From: a virus
Length of the DNA: 28,020 nucleotides
IMG/VR virus record: IMGVR_UViG_3300020404_001043
Coordinates: 1 to 28,020 of that record
Direction: 5' to 3' (one strand)
This document shows positions 1-12,130 of the stretch, piece after piece. The notes under the pieces were generated by a model that saw only the letters and a list, made by a program, of their open reading frames with translations, was not told the DNA's origin and made no database searches. The position numbers were made by a program, and so were the translations under genes. The first letter of the stretch is position 1. Each line of letters opens with the position of its first letter.

Positions 1-1806
1 CTTTATAACAATGACTTCAGAACGTTCATTGAGTACAACAGACAAGACGTTGCACTACTGGACAAGTTGGACAAAAAGTTAAGATTTATTGATCTAGCAA
101 ACGAACTTGCTCATGCAAATACTGTTTTACTTCCTACTACAATGGGTGCAGTAGCAGTTACAGAACAAGCAATTATTAATGAAGCACATAGACGTGGTTT
201 TATTGTTCCTAACAGAGTACACAGGGAACCAGGATCAAATGCGGCCGCTGGTGCTTATGTGGCATATCCTAAAAAAGGACTACATGATTGGATTGGATCA
301 ATGGACTTGAATTCACTGTATCCTAGTGTAATTAGAGCATTGAATATGGATCCAGCAACAGTAGTAGGACAACTTAGACAAAATCATACAGAAACTTACA
401 TTGACGAACAAATGCATCTTAAGAAAAAATCATTTGCGGCGGCATGGGAAGGAAAGTTTGGTAGTTTAGAATATGACTATGTAATGGAACAACGTAAAGA
501 TATTGAGATTATAATTGATTGGGAAAATGGTGAATCGGATACATTAAGTGCCGCAGAAGTGTACAAACTTATTTTTGATAGTAGTCAACCCTGGATGTTA
601 AGTGCAAACGGAACTATTTTTACAACAGAGTATGAAGGTATTATTCCAGGACTACTAAAACGTTGGTATGCTGAACGAAAAGAAATGCAGGCTAAAAAAG
701 GTCAGGCACAAGATGCCGGAAACAAAATTGAAACTGCATTTTGGGATAAAAGACAACTAGTTAAAAAGATTAACCTAAATAGTTTGTACGGTGCTATCTT
801 AAATCCAGGTTGTAGATTTTTTGATCACAGAATTGGACAAAGCACAACACTAACAGGTAGACGTATTGCAAAACACATGTCTGCTAAAGTAAATGAAATT
901 ATCACAGGTGAATATGACCATGTAGGCAAAAGTATTATATATGGTGATACAGATTCTGTTTACTTTAGTGCATATACAAGTTTGCGTCCTGAAATAGAAA
1001 AAGGACAAATACCTTGGGATAAAGATAGTGTTATTACACTTTATGATCAAATCTGTGAAGAAGCAAACAAGACATTTCCGTCATTCATGGGACAAGCATT
1101 CCATTGTCCTAAGTCAAGAGGAGAAGTTATTGCGGCAGGTAGAGAAGTTGTAGGTGAAAAAGGTTTGTATATTACAAAGAAAAGATATGCAGTATTAATT
1201 TATGACTTAGAAGGATTTAGAACTGACACTGACGGCAAACCAGGTAAAGTTAAAGCAATGGGATTAGATCTTAAACGTTCTGATACTCCAGTGTTTATGC
1301 AAGACTTTTTAAGTGAAGTATTGTTAGCAGTACTAACAGGTGCTAAAGAAGAAGATGTACTAGACATGATTACAGAGTTTAGAACAAAATTTAAAGCAAG
1401 ACCTGGTTGGGAAAAAGGATCGCCTAAACGTGCAAACAATGTTACAGACTATCTTGCAAGACTTAAAAAACACGGAAAGGTGAATATGCCTGGACATGTA
1501 AGAGCAAGTATTAACTGGAATTCTCTAAAAGAGATGAACAGTGACAAGTTTAGTATGCAGATTGTAGATGGTATGAAAGTTATCGTTTGCAAACTAAAAT
1601 CAAATCCAATGGGATATACTTCGGTTGCGTATCCTACGGATGAACTTAGACTTCCAAAATGGTTCCAAGAACTTCCATTCGCAGATGACGAAATGGAGTC
1701 AACAATTATCGATAATAAGTTAGATAATTTGATTGGAGTACTAGATTGGGATATAAAATCAACCGAACAGAAGAATACATTCAATAATTTATTTGACTTT
1801 GAATGA
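1..1806 (+). CDS. 43: DNA polymerase, family B (T4 gp43-like), 5' truncated by window edge
   Basis: Replicative DNA polymerase. The reading frame is open from base 1, so the true start lies upstream and the TTG at 67 is internal. The first codons read FIEYNRQDVALLDKL, the Exo III motif (YxxxD) of the 3'-5' proofreading domain, so what remains is the end of the exonuclease plus the whole palm/fingers/thumb. Palm motif A (DLNSLYPS) lies at about 304-327, the fingers motif KKINLNSLYG at about 766-795, and the catalytic YGDTDS at 940-957. The C-terminus, FNNLFDFE, matches the position and character of the clamp-binding tail of T4/RB69 gp43. The sliding-clamp gene follows after 37 bases. Family assignment is certain; only the missing N-terminus is unknown. 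Confidence 0.97.
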   Translation, partial: LYNNDFRTFIEYNRQDVALLDKLDKKLRFIDLANELAHANTVLLPTTMGAVAVTEQAIINEAHRRGFIVPNRVHREPGSNAAAGAYVAYPKKGLHDWIGSMDLNSLYPSVIRALNMDPATVVGQLRQNHTETYIDEQMHLKKKSFAAAWEGKFGSLEYDYVMEQRKDIEIIIDWENGESDTLSAAEVYKLIFDSSQPWMLSANGTIFTTEYEGIIPGLLKRWYAERKEMQAKKGQAQDAGNKIETAFWDKRQLVKKINLNSLYGAILNPGCRFFDHRIGQSTTLTGRRIAKHMSAKVNEIITGEYDHVGKSIIYGDTDSVYFSAYTSLRPEIEKGQIPWDKDSVITLYDQICEEANKTFPSFMGQAFHCPKSRGEVIAAGREVVGEKGLYITKKRYAVLIYDLEGFRTDTDGKPGKVKAMGLDLKRSDTPVFMQDFLSEVLLAVLTGAKEEDVLDMITEFRTKFKARPGWEKGSPKRANNVTDYLARLKKHGKVNMPGHVRASINWNSLKEMNSDKFSMQIVDGMKVIVCKLKSNPMGYTSVAYPTDELRLPKWFQELPFADDEMESTIIDNKLDNLIGVLDWDIKSTEQKNTFNNLFDFE

Positions 1807-1843: not shown

Positions 1844-2575
1844 ATGAAAGACATATTACAAGATATTGTTGCACATACACACGCACTTGGCTTTCTTAAC
1901 ATTGTTAAAGTAAACGGTGATGATGCACAAACTGGTATTGATAGCATGGCAGAGGATCGCTCTGTGATCATGCAGGCAAATACTAAAAATGCTCAAGTAG
2001 AAATGAAAGGCACATTTGGTATGCCTAACCTAAATAAACTTGACATTCATTTAAAATGCCCTGAATACAAAGATGGTGCTTCTATTGATGTTGTAAGACA
2101 AGATAGAAATGGTGAAACTATTCCAGTAGGAATACACTTTGAAAATGCAACAGGTGATTTTAAAAATGATTATCGCTTTATGAACGCAGATATTATTAAT
2201 GAAAAATTAAAAACTGTTAAGTTTAAAGGTGCACAGTGGGACGTAGAAGTTTCCCCAACTATTGCAAGTGTACAGAGATTTAAAATGCAGGCAACTGCAA
2301 ATGCTGAAGAAACTGTGTTTACAGTTTTAACAGATGGCGCTAATCTTAAATTTAAGTTTGGTGATGCAAGTACACACGCAGGTGAATTTGTTTTCCATGC
2401 AGGTATAAGCGGTACTCTTAAAAATGAGTGGGCATGGCCTGTACAACAAACACTTGCTATCTTAAGTTTAGATGGCGATAAGGTAATGAAGTTTTCAGAT
2501 CAAGGTGCTATGCAAATTCAAGTAGACAGCGGTTTGGCAACTTATGAATACATTTTGCCAGCACAAAGTAAGTAG
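1844..2575 (+). CDS. 45: sliding clamp (PCNA-fold, T4 gp45-like)
   Basis: Processivity clamp that encircles DNA and tethers the polymerase and other DNA-acting proteins. The 243-residue length fits gp45/PCNA subunits. The C-terminal half follows the PCNA pattern: alternating strands, a GEFVFHAGISG strand, an L-W-P-hydrophobic stretch at about residues 193-207, and a terminal strand QIQVDSGLATYEYILPA that closely resembles archaeal/phage clamp ends. The N-terminal half is more divergent. It sits directly after DNA polymerase and has its own promoter in the polymerase tail. GGAG at 1831-1834 supports the ATG at 1844. The call rests on fold-level pattern and context, not on a strong signature. 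Confidence 0.72.
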   Translation: MKDILQDIVAHTHALGFLNIVKVNGDDAQTGIDSMAEDRSVIMQANTKNAQVEMKGTFGMPNLNKLDIHLKCPEYKDGASIDVVRQDRNGETIPVGIHFENATGDFKNDYRFMNADIINEKLKTVKFKGAQWDVEVSPTIASVQRFKMQATANAEETVFTVLTDGANLKFKFGDASTHAGEFVFHAGISGTLKNEWAWPVQQTLAILSLDGDKVMKFSDQGAMQIQVDSGLATYEYILPAQSK

Positions 2576-2586
2576 GAGGAACAGTA

Positions 2587-4044
2587 GTGAACACTGATCT
2601 AACAAAAGAACAAAAAGACTATGCAATTTTCTTGCCAGCGATCAGTGGTTTCTATGCGACTTTTATCGGCAAACAACGTAGAGAAGAATACGTAGAAAAA
2701 AGTCGTATACCATTTCCAAACAACGAGATGGAGGGACTAAACTGGTTCAATAAAAAAGATAGCATGTTTAACTATCATTGGAGTTTATATAGTGCGGGTC
2801 ATGCCGAACTTGACATCAATAAAGACGCACCAAAAGAACTAATGATACGTGAACGTGATCGAGAAAACAGTTGGTTACTTGGTGACTCAGGTGGCTTCCA
2901 GATTGGTAAAGGTGTTTGGGAAGGTAATTGGAAAGATCCTAACTGCCCTAAAGCAAAAAAGAAACGTGAACAAGTATTAACTTGGATGGACGCATATATG
3001 GACTATGGCATGATACTTGATATTCCGGCGTGGGTATCTCGTTCACCTGCAGGACAAAAAGCAACTGGCATTACAAACTATCAAGATGCCGTAAATGCAA
3101 CAAGAATTAACAACGACTATTTTATGAAAAATAGAACAGGTGCTTGTAAATTCTTAAATGTTTTACAAGGTGAAAATCATACTGATGCAGAAGATTGGTA
3201 TCAACAGATGAAAGACTACTGTGATCCAAAACAATATCCAGACACACACTTTAATGGTTGGTCGATGGGTGGTCAGAATATGTGTGATGTTCATTTAGTT
3301 TTGAAAAGACTTGTATCTTTACGTTTTGATGGTTTATTAGAAAAAGGCATACATGACTTTATGCACTTTTTAGGTACTAGTAAACTTGAGTGGGCAACAC
3401 TACTTACAGATATACAAAGAGCAGTACGCAAATATCACAATCCAAACTTTACGATTACATTTGACTGTGCATCTCCGTTCCTTGCAACAGCAAATGGTCA
3501 AATATATTGTGAACTAGAAACACAAGACAGAAGTAAATGGGTATATAGAATGGTGCCTAGCATTGACGATAAAGCACTTGCAACTGATACTACACATTTT
3601 GGTACTGCATTTGTAAGAGAAGGCAAACATGGAAGTTTCTTAGATAGTCCTGTAACAAAAGATCTACAAGCAAAAGATGTTTGTATATACGCACCAGGCG
3701 ACCTAAATAAGATAGGTAAAGAAGGAAAAACATCTTGGGATAGTTTTTCGTATGCGATCCAAATGGGTCATAATGTATGGAGTCATATTAATGCAGTACA
3801 AGAAGCAAACAGACAATACGACAATGGCATCATTCCAAACATGCTTGTCGATGAACAGTTTGACAGGGTTTTATTTAGAGATGTTGTGGAGGCAATATTC
3901 GCAACTGACAACAGAGACACTGCAAACGCAGTTATTGAAGAGTTTTCCAGATTCTGGATGTCGATAATCGGCACTAGAGGCGCAACGGGAAAGAAGACTG
4001 TAAACGCAAGTACACAGTTTTCGAATTTATTCGAGGAGGTATAA
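2587..4044 (+). CDS. dpdA: DpdA-like DNA 7-deazaguanine transglycosylase (TGT superfamily)
   Basis: Predicted to swap guanine in phage DNA for a 7-deazaguanine base, by analogy with tRNA-guanine transglycosylase (TGT). Visible TGT features in order: LLGDSGGFQIG with acid/base D100 (about residues 97-107), LDIPAWV (144-150), GWSMGG (224-229) matching the TGT substrate loop, and FDCASPF with the likely nucleophile D293. The CxCxxC-His zinc cluster of tRNA TGTs is not seen, which fits a DNA-acting phage version. At 485 residues it is longer than bacterial TGT. The last residues, TQFSNLFEEV, resemble the clamp-binding tail of the neighbouring polymerase. Start is GTG with GGAGG 7 bases upstream. 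folE, queD-like, queE and yhhQ genes occur in the same window. The substrate base is not deducible from sequence. Confidence 0.85.
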   Translation: MNTDLTKEQKDYAIFLPAISGFYATFIGKQRREEYVEKSRIPFPNNEMEGLNWFNKKDSMFNYHWSLYSAGHAELDINKDAPKELMIRERDRENSWLLGDSGGFQIGKGVWEGNWKDPNCPKAKKKREQVLTWMDAYMDYGMILDIPAWVSRSPAGQKATGITNYQDAVNATRINNDYFMKNRTGACKFLNVLQGENHTDAEDWYQQMKDYCDPKQYPDTHFNGWSMGGQNMCDVHLVLKRLVSLRFDGLLEKGIHDFMHFLGTSKLEWATLLTDIQRAVRKYHNPNFTITFDCASPFLATANGQIYCELETQDRSKWVYRMVPSIDDKALATDTTHFGTAFVREGKHGSFLDSPVTKDLQAKDVCIYAPGDLNKIGKEGKTSWDSFSYAIQMGHNVWSHINAVQEANRQYDNGIIPNMLVDEQFDRVLFRDVVEAIFATDNRDTANAVIEEFSRFWMSIIGTRGATGKKTVNASTQFSNLFEEV

Positions 4045-4230
4045 ATGATGGCGACCGGCAGACAAACAAAAAAAGCAAAAAGACTACAAAACATGCACAA
4101 CTATCTACACAACAAAGTTGAAGAAGTAGAAAAAGAAAGAAATGGTGATAGAAGTTGGCAAACAAAAGAACATTTAATGAAACTTAAAAAGCAAAAGTTG
4201 GCAATTAAGGATCAAATAAAAAACGGGTAA
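4045..4230 (+). CDS. small basic coiled-coil protein, DUF465-like
   Basis: A 61-residue, Lys/Glu-rich, fully helical-looking protein. The second half (HLMKLKKQKLAIKDQI) resembles the end of the short DUF465/YdcH proteins, whose function is poorly defined. The start overlaps the DpdA stop as TAAATGATG. A strong GAGGAGG at 4033-4039 inside the dpdA tail serves either the ATG at 4045 or that at 4048; the latter has the better spacing. Translational coupling to dpdA is likely. No catalytic motif is seen; the DUF465 link is a resemblance over about 20 residues. Confidence 0.7.
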   Translation: MMATGRQTKKAKRLQNMHNYLHNKVEEVEKERNGDRSWQTKEHLMKLKKQKLAIKDQIKNG

Positions 4231-4234
4231 TATT

Positions 4235-4744
4235 ATGAAACGTGATTACGAAGACGGTGTTAGAGATGATGTTGTATTTTTTACAGGATATGAAGTAGAA
4301 AAGACTCCTGCATTTGATATGGATACACTATTTGTTGTAGGTATACAACCATTAGAAAAAGTATTAAGTGAAGCAAATAAACATCACGTTGATCACATAT
4401 ATTTAGGTGCTAATCAATCTTTCTTTCCAGATGAAGATTGGGATCATCTTGTTTTTGGTTTATTAAGTGAAGGTTATACTGTTACACTTGATTATGATGT
4501 TAAACATCATGAATGGGTTTTAGAATCAGGGTATAACGAAGATAAAAAATTTATTAGTCAAATAAGTGTTAAACTTCCAAATATTAATCAACTTAATTAC
4601 AATGCTTGTATTAAAATTGACGATAAAGACTTTAAAGCAACTAACAATGGCGTTTGGATTCATCAAGTACATGATTTGCAAGATCGGCAAAAATTTACTG
4701 ATTGGTCAAAGTATGAAAATGATAATCCACTTGACAACAAATAA
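4235..4744 (+). CDS. conserved-type phage protein of unknown function between dpdA and the queD-like gene
   Basis: A 169-residue acidic soluble protein without a recognised domain. The N-terminal 70 residues alternate hydrophobic strands and helices: VVFFTGYEV, TLFVVGI, then HIYLGANQSF. This would suit a small alpha/beta fold such as a nucleotide- or receiver-like fold. The C-terminal part (LPNINQLNYNACIKIDDKDF) looks beta-rich. It begins 4 bases after the upstream gene and ends 15 bases before the queD-like gene, whose promoter lies in its last codons. The location suggests a role in the 7-deazaguanine pathway, but that is inference from neighbours only. Confidence 0.75.
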   Translation: MKRDYEDGVRDDVVFFTGYEVEKTPAFDMDTLFVVGIQPLEKVLSEANKHHVDHIYLGANQSFFPDEDWDHLVFGLLSEGYTVTLDYDVKHHEWVLESGYNEDKKFISQISVKLPNINQLNYNACIKIDDKDFKATNNGVWIHQVHDLQDRQKFTDWSKYENDNPLDNK

Positions 4745-6816: not shown

Positions 6817-7503
6817 ATGAAAATTAAAGACAAAATTCAACAAAGACTGAAAGACAATAATATTAGATATTGGGCGAATGATAATATATCTAAATTTATT
6901 GATTCAGATGAAAAGCAACAATTAATTGACGAGGCTGTTCCTGCCTTTGAAAATGTACTACAACATTTGCTGATTGATACTGAAACAGATCCTAACAGTC
7001 AGGATACTGCAAGACGTATGGCAAAGATGTATATAAATGAGATTATGAGTGGACGTTATGAGTCTATGCCTAATCCAAGTGCTTTTCCTAACTATATTGA
7101 AAACGGTTATGAAGGTATGCTAGTGGTAAGAAGTGAACTATCAAGTGTTTGTTCACATCATCATCAACCTGTAAAGGGTGTAGCATATATTGGTATCATA
7201 GCAGGTCCTAAACTATTAGGATTAAGCAAGTACACAAGGATTGCACAATGGTGTGCAAAACGTGGTACACTACAAGAAGAACTTAATGTAATGATTGCAA
7301 ATCAGATACAGGAAACTACTGGTAGTGAACATGTTGGTGTATACATTCAAGCAACACATGGTTGTTGTGAGAATAGAGGTATCAAAGCACATAGTTCTTT
7401 AACTCAAACAACAGTATTGCGTGGAGATTTTAAAAATGTTCCTGCAACTAAAAAAGAGTTTATGGACAATGTGAAACTTCAACAAGAATTTGCTCCAAGA
7501 TAA
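6817..7503 (+). CDS. folE: GTP cyclohydrolase I
   Basis: Converts GTP to 7,8-dihydroneopterin triphosphate, the first step toward 7-deazaguanines (and folate). Family landmarks in order: DTARRMAKMY (residues 63-72), VCSHHHQPVKGVAYIGI (111-127) with zinc ligands C112 and H115, GLSKYTRIAQWCAKR (135-149) forming the GTP-binding helix, and HGCCENRG (181-188) with zinc ligand C183. The catalytic set is intact. 228 residues matches the usual 190-230. GGAG at 6806-6809 supports the ATG. yhhQ follows 60 bases downstream. Together with the QueD-like protein and QueE this implies de novo synthesis of CDG during infection. Confidence 0.95.
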   Translation: MKIKDKIQQRLKDNNIRYWANDNISKFIDSDEKQQLIDEAVPAFENVLQHLLIDTETDPNSQDTARRMAKMYINEIMSGRYESMPNPSAFPNYIENGYEGMLVVRSELSSVCSHHHQPVKGVAYIGIIAGPKLLGLSKYTRIAQWCAKRGTLQEELNVMIANQIQETTGSEHVGVYIQATHGCCENRGIKAHSSLTQTTVLRGDFKNVPATKKEFMDNVKLQQEFAPR

Positions 7504-7563: not shown

Positions 7564-8181
7564 ATGTTCAAATCACTTTTAGAAGGTGTTGATAAAACAC
7601 TAGTTAGAAACCTAGTGATACTACACACCTTGGTAATTGCAGTAAGTAATTACCTTGTAACAATTAGGTTCAATTTGTTTGACGAGCCTATTCTTCCAGT
7701 TCTTGGTCAATTTCCATTAGCGGCGGCGGCATTTACGTTTCCGATCGTTGTAGTGGCAACTGACTTAACTGTTAGATTGGTCGGTAAACAAGCAGGAAGG
7801 GCCGTTGTTGCAATGGCAATTATTCCGGCAATTATTGCCTCCGTTCTAGTGCTTTTAGCATTAGGCGACGAACATGCATACAGAGTTGGTATCGCTTCTG
7901 GTACTGCTTATGCTATCGGTACAATGCTTGACGTATATGTATTCCAACATATTCGTGAACGTTATACAGATATGTGGTGGGCGGCACCGGCGTTGTCAAC
8001 TGTTGCGGCGAATATAATTGATACATATTCGTTCTTTTACACGGCTTTTTACCCGGCGCCGTGGGTACACGCAGTAGCATTTAATAACACACTTACAAAA
8101 ATTATTGTAGGACTAGTTGTGTTTTTACCTGCTTATGGTGTATTACTTGCGTATCTAAAACGAAGATTCGCAAAGGTATAA
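7564..8181 (+). CDS. yhhQ: YhhQ/VUT-family queuosine-precursor transporter
   Basis: Inner-membrane protein predicted to import preQ0/preQ1, the established role of E. coli YhhQ. The 205-residue protein is hydrophobic with about six membrane segments. It carries hallmark stretches shared with E. coli YhhQ: HTLVIAVSNYLV (about residues 21-32), AFTFPIVVVATDLTVRLVG (56-74), YAIGTMLDVYVFQHIRER (118-135), STVAANIIDTYSFF (146-159), and KIIVGLVVFLPAYGVLL near the end. A strong AAGGAGG (7552-7558) precedes the ATG. It follows folE and is closed by an intrinsic terminator, so it ends the folE-yhhQ unit. A phage copy means the virus can use salvaged precursor as well as make its own. Confidence 0.9.
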   Translation: MFKSLLEGVDKTLVRNLVILHTLVIAVSNYLVTIRFNLFDEPILPVLGQFPLAAAAFTFPIVVVATDLTVRLVGKQAGRAVVAMAIIPAIIASVLVLLALGDEHAYRVGIASGTAYAIGTMLDVYVFQHIRERYTDMWWAAPALSTVAANIIDTYSFFYTAFYPAPWVHAVAFNNTLTKIIVGLVVFLPAYGVLLAYLKRRFAKV

Positions 8182-11210: not shown

Positions 11211-11233
11211 ATATAATGATAAAGGCTAAACAG

Positions 11234-12130
11234 ATGGATGAAAAGAAATACTATTACTCCGAAATATTTTATAGTATTCAAGGAGAAGGACACTATACAG
11301 GTGCTCCAACGGCTTGGATAAGATTTTTTCTTTGCAATTTACAGTGTAGTGGCTTTGGACAAATAGATCCAACTAATCCAGAAACATATGATTTGCCCTT
11401 TGAGAATTTTGATGTAAGTTCTGTGGATAGAGTTGAGGATTTGCCTGTATGGGAAAAAGGTTGCGATAGTAGTTACACATGGGCAAAGAAGTTTAAAAGT
11501 TTAATGGGGCACGAAACTCCAAGTACACTTGCAAATAAAATTATAGACTGTATTAAAAATGACAGTAATCCTGAAGGCAAGTTTTTACATCCTGTAAGTA
11601 ATTTTAGACAACACTTGTGTTTTACAGGTGGCGAACCTTTAATGGTTACAGGACAACAAGCAGTAGTAGGTATATATAATGAATTAAAAAGACAGGACAA
11701 TTTGCCTGGTTCTATGACATTTGAAACTAATGGTACACAAAAGTTACGTCCAGATTTTATTGAATGGGGCAAAAGTGTTGACACAGAAATATTTTTTAGT
11801 TGTAGTCCTAAACTGTTTACAGTGTCAGGTGAAAAGCCAGAAAAAGCAATTAAGCCTGAAACAGTTGCAGAATATTTACAAGTAAGTAATAAAGGACAAC
11901 TTAAATTTGTTGTAGGTGATAAAGATAGAGAATGGGAAGAAATGGAATCAGTAGTTGCAAAATTTAGAGATGCAGGTGTTGATTGGCCAGTCTGGATTAT
12001 GCCTACAGGTGCTAGAGAAGAAGAACAAACTGCGGGTGCAGGAAAGGTGGCAGAAAAAGCATTTAGAAGAGGTTATAACGTTGCGGCAAGAGTACATGTA
12101 TATCTTTTCGGTAACGCAATAGGAACATGA
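11234..12130 (+). CDS. queE: 7-carboxy-7-deazaguanine synthase (radical SAM)
   Basis: Converts 6-carboxytetrahydropterin to 7-carboxy-7-deazaguanine using SAM and a 4Fe-4S cluster. Counting from the ATG at 11216, YSEIFYSIQGEG (14-25) is the typical QueE N-terminus. FFLCNLQC (37-44) gives C40 and C44, and the third cluster Cys appears to be C83 in EKGCDSSY, after a 38-residue insert instead of the usual CxxC. FTGGEPLM is the radical-SAM SAM-binding strand, and FETNGT follows in the usual order. The long form (about 300 residues) differs from compact bacterial QueE (about 210-225). The ATG at 11234 is chosen because the promoter places the transcript start near 11217; AAAGG lies 11 bases upstream. 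Overlaps the next gene by ATGA. Confidence 0.87.
   Translation: MDEKKYYYSEIFYSIQGEGHYTGAPTAWIRFFLCNLQCSGFGQIDPTNPETYDLPFENFDVSSVDRVEDLPVWEKGCDSSYTWAKKFKSLMGHETPSTLANKIIDCIKNDSNPEGKFLHPVSNFRQHLCFTGGEPLMVTGQQAVVGIYNELKRQDNLPGSMTFETNGTQKLRPDFIEWGKSVDTEIFFSCSPKLFTVSGEKPEKAIKPETVAEYLQVSNKGQLKFVVGDKDREWEEMESVVAKFRDAGVDWPVWIMPTGAREEEQTAGAGKVAEKAFRRGYNVAARVHVYLFGNAIGT

Follow-up and report, generated by a model that had tools for sequence, protein, structure and literature searches.

A polymerase-like C-terminal tail in a subfamily of phage DpdA proteins is a probable sliding clamp-interacting peptide

In a viral contig analysed over 28,020 bases (hereafter the window), the genes for a DNA polymerase, a 243-aa protein and a 485-aa protein follow one another in that order, and the first and last of these proteins end in closely similar peptides. 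Why would a putative DNA-modifying enzyme end like the polymerase, with the gene of a sliding clamp lying between the two? The relevant features are:

1..1806, + strand: family B DNA polymerase (Pfam DNA_pol_B, 8e-35; phrog_262, 3e-126), truncated at its 5' end by the window edge
1780..1803, + strand: polymerase C-terminal tail FNNLFDFE, a presumed clamp-interacting peptide read from the sequence and conserved in relatives
1844..2575, + strand: sliding clamp of PCNA/gp45 type, 243 aa (phrog_12062, function unknown; homologue models match PCNA)
2587..4044, + strand: DpdA-like enzyme of the TGT family, 485 aa, GTG start (homologue model matches TGT)
3970..4017, + strand: DpdA linker GTRGATGKKTVNASTQ, predicted disordered (low pLDDT in the homologue model)
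4018..4041, + strand: DpdA C-terminal tail FSNLFEEV, a proposed clamp-interacting peptide (sequence, conservation, rank statistics)
4033..4040, + strand: GAGGAGGT, Shine-Dalgarno sequence for the ORF at 4045, overlapping the EEV codons

The 485-aa protein had no match in Pfam, PHROGs or NCBIfam, and its sequence contains the DSGGFQ motif. DpdA, clamp and polymerase were extracted with profiles from a set of relatives comprising 80 close ones, 80 alignment-search hits, 80 distant ones and 43 hits in bacterial or archaeal assemblies, with some overlap. For one of the close ones (L062), clamp and DpdA were modelled with AlphaFold as a single read-through chain in which TAG was read as S (49 rows, mean pLDDT 85). 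Residues 1-245 of this model match PCNA with a Z of 18.9 over 227 residues, and a clamp model from a second relative (L002) does so with a Z of 18.1, 224-228 residues being aligned for the two clamp models. Residues 255-668 match the queuine tRNA-ribosyltransferase 2ash_A (VIA-align Z 19.4, 304 residues). At the level of homologue models, these results confirm the 243-aa protein as a PCNA-type clamp and the 485-aa protein as a TGT-type (DpdA) enzyme. Another locus, L022, was passed over as the modelled chain; the read-through linker there is a small membrane-protein-like ORF between clamp and DpdA (7785-7990).

The initial annotation had drawn attention to an F-x-N-L-F-[D/E] sequence at both C-termini and to the clamp gene between them. 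Both translations bear out the shared peptide, the polymerase ending in ...TEQKNTFNNLFDFE (TFNNLFDFE) and DpdA in ...GTRGATGKKTVNASTQFSNLFEEV (TQFSNLFEEV), and the intervening ORF at 1844-2575 has a PCNA fold in the homologue models. We propose, with a probability of roughly three in four, that the DpdA tail is a clamp-interacting peptide of the T4 kind, which would dock in the clamp like the polymerase tail and so tether DpdA to new DNA. DpdA would carry, on a disordered C-terminal arm, a peptide of the gp43/gp33/gp55 kind with the form phi-x-x-[L/F]-F, in most cases with D or E as the next residue; this peptide would fit into the hydrophobic pocket of the clamp used by the polymerase tail. 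Once docked, the enzyme would be held on clamps sitting on freshly made DNA, where it would exchange guanine for a preQ0-type base. Clamp binding, the shared pocket and the coupling of base exchange to replication are what we infer here, docking in the pocket by analogy with T4. The last 23 residues of the L062 model (710-732) have a pLDDT of about 31-37 and are predicted to be disordered, which fits the expectation for a short linear motif. In the same chain the DpdA tail is undocked, as is the polymerase tail in the control chain of polymerase tail and clamp (L002).

In T4, the clamp-interacting peptide of gp43, SLDFLF, sits between two clamp domains, and removal of six residues from gp43 abolishes association with the clamp (PMC12746103). 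The tails of gp55, gp33 and gp43 are interchangeable, and the clamp gp45 also has a role in late transcription (PMC2988020). Ligase and RNase H are further clamp clients (PMC7892883, PMC3012046). The T4 alpha-glucosyltransferase pulls down gp45, and the share of alpha-glucosylation is set by expression and enzyme rate, not by clamp binding (PMC13216743); clamp binding therefore need not control the level of a modification. The part of gp45 in late transcription and the alpha-glucosyltransferase result lend some weight to a reading that we consider rather unlikely, in which the tail does bind the clamp as a general tether to DNA, including clamps left behind and those of late transcription complexes, uncoupled from the moving fork. 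The DpdA and polymerase tails would also compete for the same pockets, although a trimeric clamp offers several of them. Against a general tether stands the position of the DpdA gene next to those of polymerase and clamp, an adjacency that supports a functional link. The distance from clamp stop to DpdA start is at most 20 bases in 109 of 227 loci and at most 400 in 207, in a count for which loci were fetched around DpdA, so that a clamp lying outside the flank would have escaped it. The late sigma (gp55-like) relatives of these phages were checked for the tail and lack it, which makes a link to late transcription less likely. The polymerase gene itself is split into two ORFs in PA5oct (L081 1-2831), with a Hef-like homing endonuclease between them, and likewise lies in two ORFs in Atu_ph07 (L387 3966-6935).

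Recruitment of DpdA by the clamp also predicts that the tail should persist in related phage enzymes, and the initial annotation had named related phage DpdAs without it as evidence against its proposal. The comparison did not refute it: among 45 phage DpdA clusters (80% identity) with a nearby clamp, nearly all have phi-x-x-[L/F]-F after the enzyme core, over a range that extends down to about 28% identity. PA5oct DpdA (37% identity) has SFNSLFDV, and that of Vibrio phage 2.275.O (28% identity) has the C-terminus NNNDLFGW. Degenerate versions occur as VSSLWEG (L221), HANFEE (L147) and TKTFGD (L259), and the ambiguous tail of Phosso DpdA has only VEGLF. Phosso was considered as a clamp-less control and rejected because a related clamp is encoded elsewhere in its genome; its polymerase ends in TFNDLFTF. 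The extreme C-terminal position noted at first holds for the window and must be relaxed for many relatives, in which the motif is internal, about 25-45 residues before the stop, and is followed by an acidic extension. Several extended DpdAs (L081, L224, L257, L290 and others) carry a further acidic element that is conserved, [DE]..[KE]L..LE, for example LDESKLEQLGE, about 20-30 residues downstream of the clamp-like motif.

Could the motif simply be a conserved part of DpdA, serving self-association or another partner, its resemblance to the polymerase tail being convergent? The linker GTRGATGKKTVNASTQ ahead of the motif is itself strongly conserved within the marine clade, which a pure tether would not need, and the many DpdAs that run past the motif to an acidic end with its own conserved element speak for the same possibility. 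However, the linkers of the different clades are unrelated (GTRGATGKKTVNASTQ-F, LRGGPAQNTF, LKSTVAGF, SDTSTEEVMNEFF) and the motif is kept nonetheless, in a region that is predicted to be disordered. Chromosomal relatives that share the enzyme core (Shinella, Sphingobium, Sulfitobacter and others) have C-termini that differ from the phage motif: with clusters at 50% identity, a loose pattern was found in 6 of 7 phage clusters versus 5 of 21 chromosomal ones (P = 0.007), and a strict pattern in 4 of 7 versus 1 of 21 (P = 0.008). These tailless chromosomal members of the subfamily (L300-L333) are mostly from Alphaproteobacteria. Far TGT-like proteins were also seen on two Bacilli MAG contigs (L336 4245-5388; L337), one of them ending in KQNSLFDF; on L337, two neighbouring proteins (1699-2176 and 4072-4510) carry KGKSLFNY at their C-termini, which may be a different tail code.

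The motif also varies along with the tail of the same phage's polymerase, which again argues against a purely DpdA-intrinsic function. The window pairs FNNLFD of the polymerase with FSNLFE of DpdA, and Vibrio phage 2.275.O pairs NNTDLFDW with NDLFGW. In two other relatives both proteins have a double phenylalanine, the polymerase ending in TMQQFFEF and DpdA in EVMNEFFEF (L218), or in ALQAFFEF and EVLNEFFEF (L223). When DpdA tails were scored against their own or swapped polymerase tails, the scores were 19.6 and 16.1, respectively (P = 1e-4, 18 clusters at 65% identity); the signal held with 7 clusters at 50% identity (P = 0.01) and lost significance with the 5 groups obtained at 42%. On a tree of DpdA cores from which the tails had been removed, the polymerase switched independently from LF to FF three times; DpdA followed twice, remained unchanged once and never went the opposite way, and three cases are too few for an independent-pairs test to reach significance. 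An FF/LF class table from automatic windows gave no significance either. The polymerase tail is also found in relatives without DpdA in the clamp neighbourhood, such as Atu_ph07 (FADLFGF). With these observations set against it, a purely DpdA-intrinsic motif seems improbable to us.

How unusual is such a tail among the proteins of one phage? We estimated the chance level by whole-proteome scans in ten phages (genomes or large contigs), in which the last 60 residues of each protein were compared with the polymerase tail. Across the ten, DpdA is among the proteins most similar to that tail (in PA5oct, 3 of 469 proteins score at or above it), with a combined P of 5e-7 by Fisher's method using one value per lineage, the worst of each clade; as the lineages share ancestry, this value reflects how unusual such a tail is for a protein and says nothing of independent origin. 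By a 6-residue core, one genome (G009/L215) gave no rank signal (p = 0.69). The initial annotation had seen no comparable tail on other proteins in the window, and this specificity extends to a close relative of 182 kb (G001), where, within the final 15 residues, polymerase and DpdA alone match F/Y..[LMI]F[DEGST]; two further proteins there, both without the acidic residue, satisfy a looser pattern. Similarly, the motif ends only polymerase and DpdA in G006 and G007, and [L/M/I]F[DEG][FWY] ends only these two in Vibrio phage 2.275.O.

Part of the window's tail has a second reading at the DNA level. The DpdA codons GAG GAG GTA (EEV) double as the Shine-Dalgarno sequence GAGGAGGT of the next gene, an arrangement found in 64 of 67 relatives, and the EEV ending is therefore no evidence by itself. 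The overlap of the last DpdA codons and stop (4033-4044) with the Shine-Dalgarno sequence of the gene at 4045 suggests translational coupling. The marine cluster supplied 100 distinct DNA tails; in these, the first motif position is F or Y in all 100, the L is present in 99 and the F in all 100, the L being encoded by six different codons. Similarity by chance, or from the Shine-Dalgarno and stop signals at the gene end, is thus very improbable, since the overlap with the next gene's Shine-Dalgarno, real as it is, explains EEV only, while F, L and F are retained although their codons vary, the motif persists even some 25-45 residues before the stop, and the rank statistics contradict it. Copying of the polymerase tail by recombination was also considered and set aside; the DNA tails of polymerase and DpdA differ at most codons.

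The initial annotation had proposed that the clamp recruits DpdA to the moving replisome so that base exchange follows synthesis. This is partly supported, by a tail that is conserved, predicted to be disordered, matched to the phage's own polymerase tail and absent from chromosomal relatives, and by a partner with a PCNA fold; binding itself and its coupling to replication belong to the proposed mechanism. As judged from sequence, DpdA is likely a new clamp client, recruitment is the most likely role of its tail, and replication coupling would be a further step. Only tentatively do we extend the proposal to a DpdA that is a standing client using the docking code of the polymerase, with guanine replacement coupled to replication and both tails changing together; this fuller version is possible, and we would not yet favor it.

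Other genes of the window bear on the supply of the modified base:

6817-7503: FolE
7564-8181: transporter of the Vut_1/YhhQ type
11216-12130: QueE-like ORF, by inspection

Vibrio phage 2.275.O has QueC, QueD and QueF. None of these three turned up in G001, G006 and G011, incomplete contigs of marine relatives, so the preQ0 may be supplied partly by the host.

If recruitment by the clamp is correct, the clamp would bring modification to new DNA, which would bear on how DpdA finds phage DNA, on which DNA it acts and when. It would also make DpdA the second kind of DNA modifier counted among the clients of phage clamps. The DpdA subfamily itself is missing from profile libraries, and its members are annotated as hypothetical proteins in PA5oct, Phosso and 2.275.O. 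In a literature search of open-licence papers, no description of DpdA bound to a clamp was found.

Among known systems, the phage DpdA and DpdA2 proteins (Enterobacteria phage 9g, Vibrio phage nt-1) are likewise TGT-like, with predicted 7-deazaguanine insertion and nearby preQ0 genes. The present subfamily differs in being unmatched by Pfam, PHROGs and NCBIfam, and its likeness to nt-1 DpdA2 is marginal (profile probability 25%, E 8e-4 over 68 columns). DpdA2 of the T4-like phage nt-1 has no such tail, which makes the tail a trait of the present subfamily and not of DpdA in general. With the T4 alpha-glucosyltransferase and gp45, the system would have in common a phage DNA-modifying enzyme associated with the sliding clamp, an association proposed here from sequence and known there from the pull-down. 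The two enzymes belong to different families, one glucosylating hmC and the other predicted to exchange guanine, and in DpdA the tail resembles that of the polymerase. Another parallel is with the T4/RB69 peptides of gp43, gp33 and gp55: a short hydrophobic-acidic C-terminal peptide of the phi-x-x-L-F form on a flexible arm, a PCNA-type clamp encoded by the same genome, and a peptide common to the polymerase of the same phage. Here, by contrast, the candidate peptide is known from sequence, is sometimes internal and followed by an acidic extension, and is carried by a putative base-exchanging DNA modifier.
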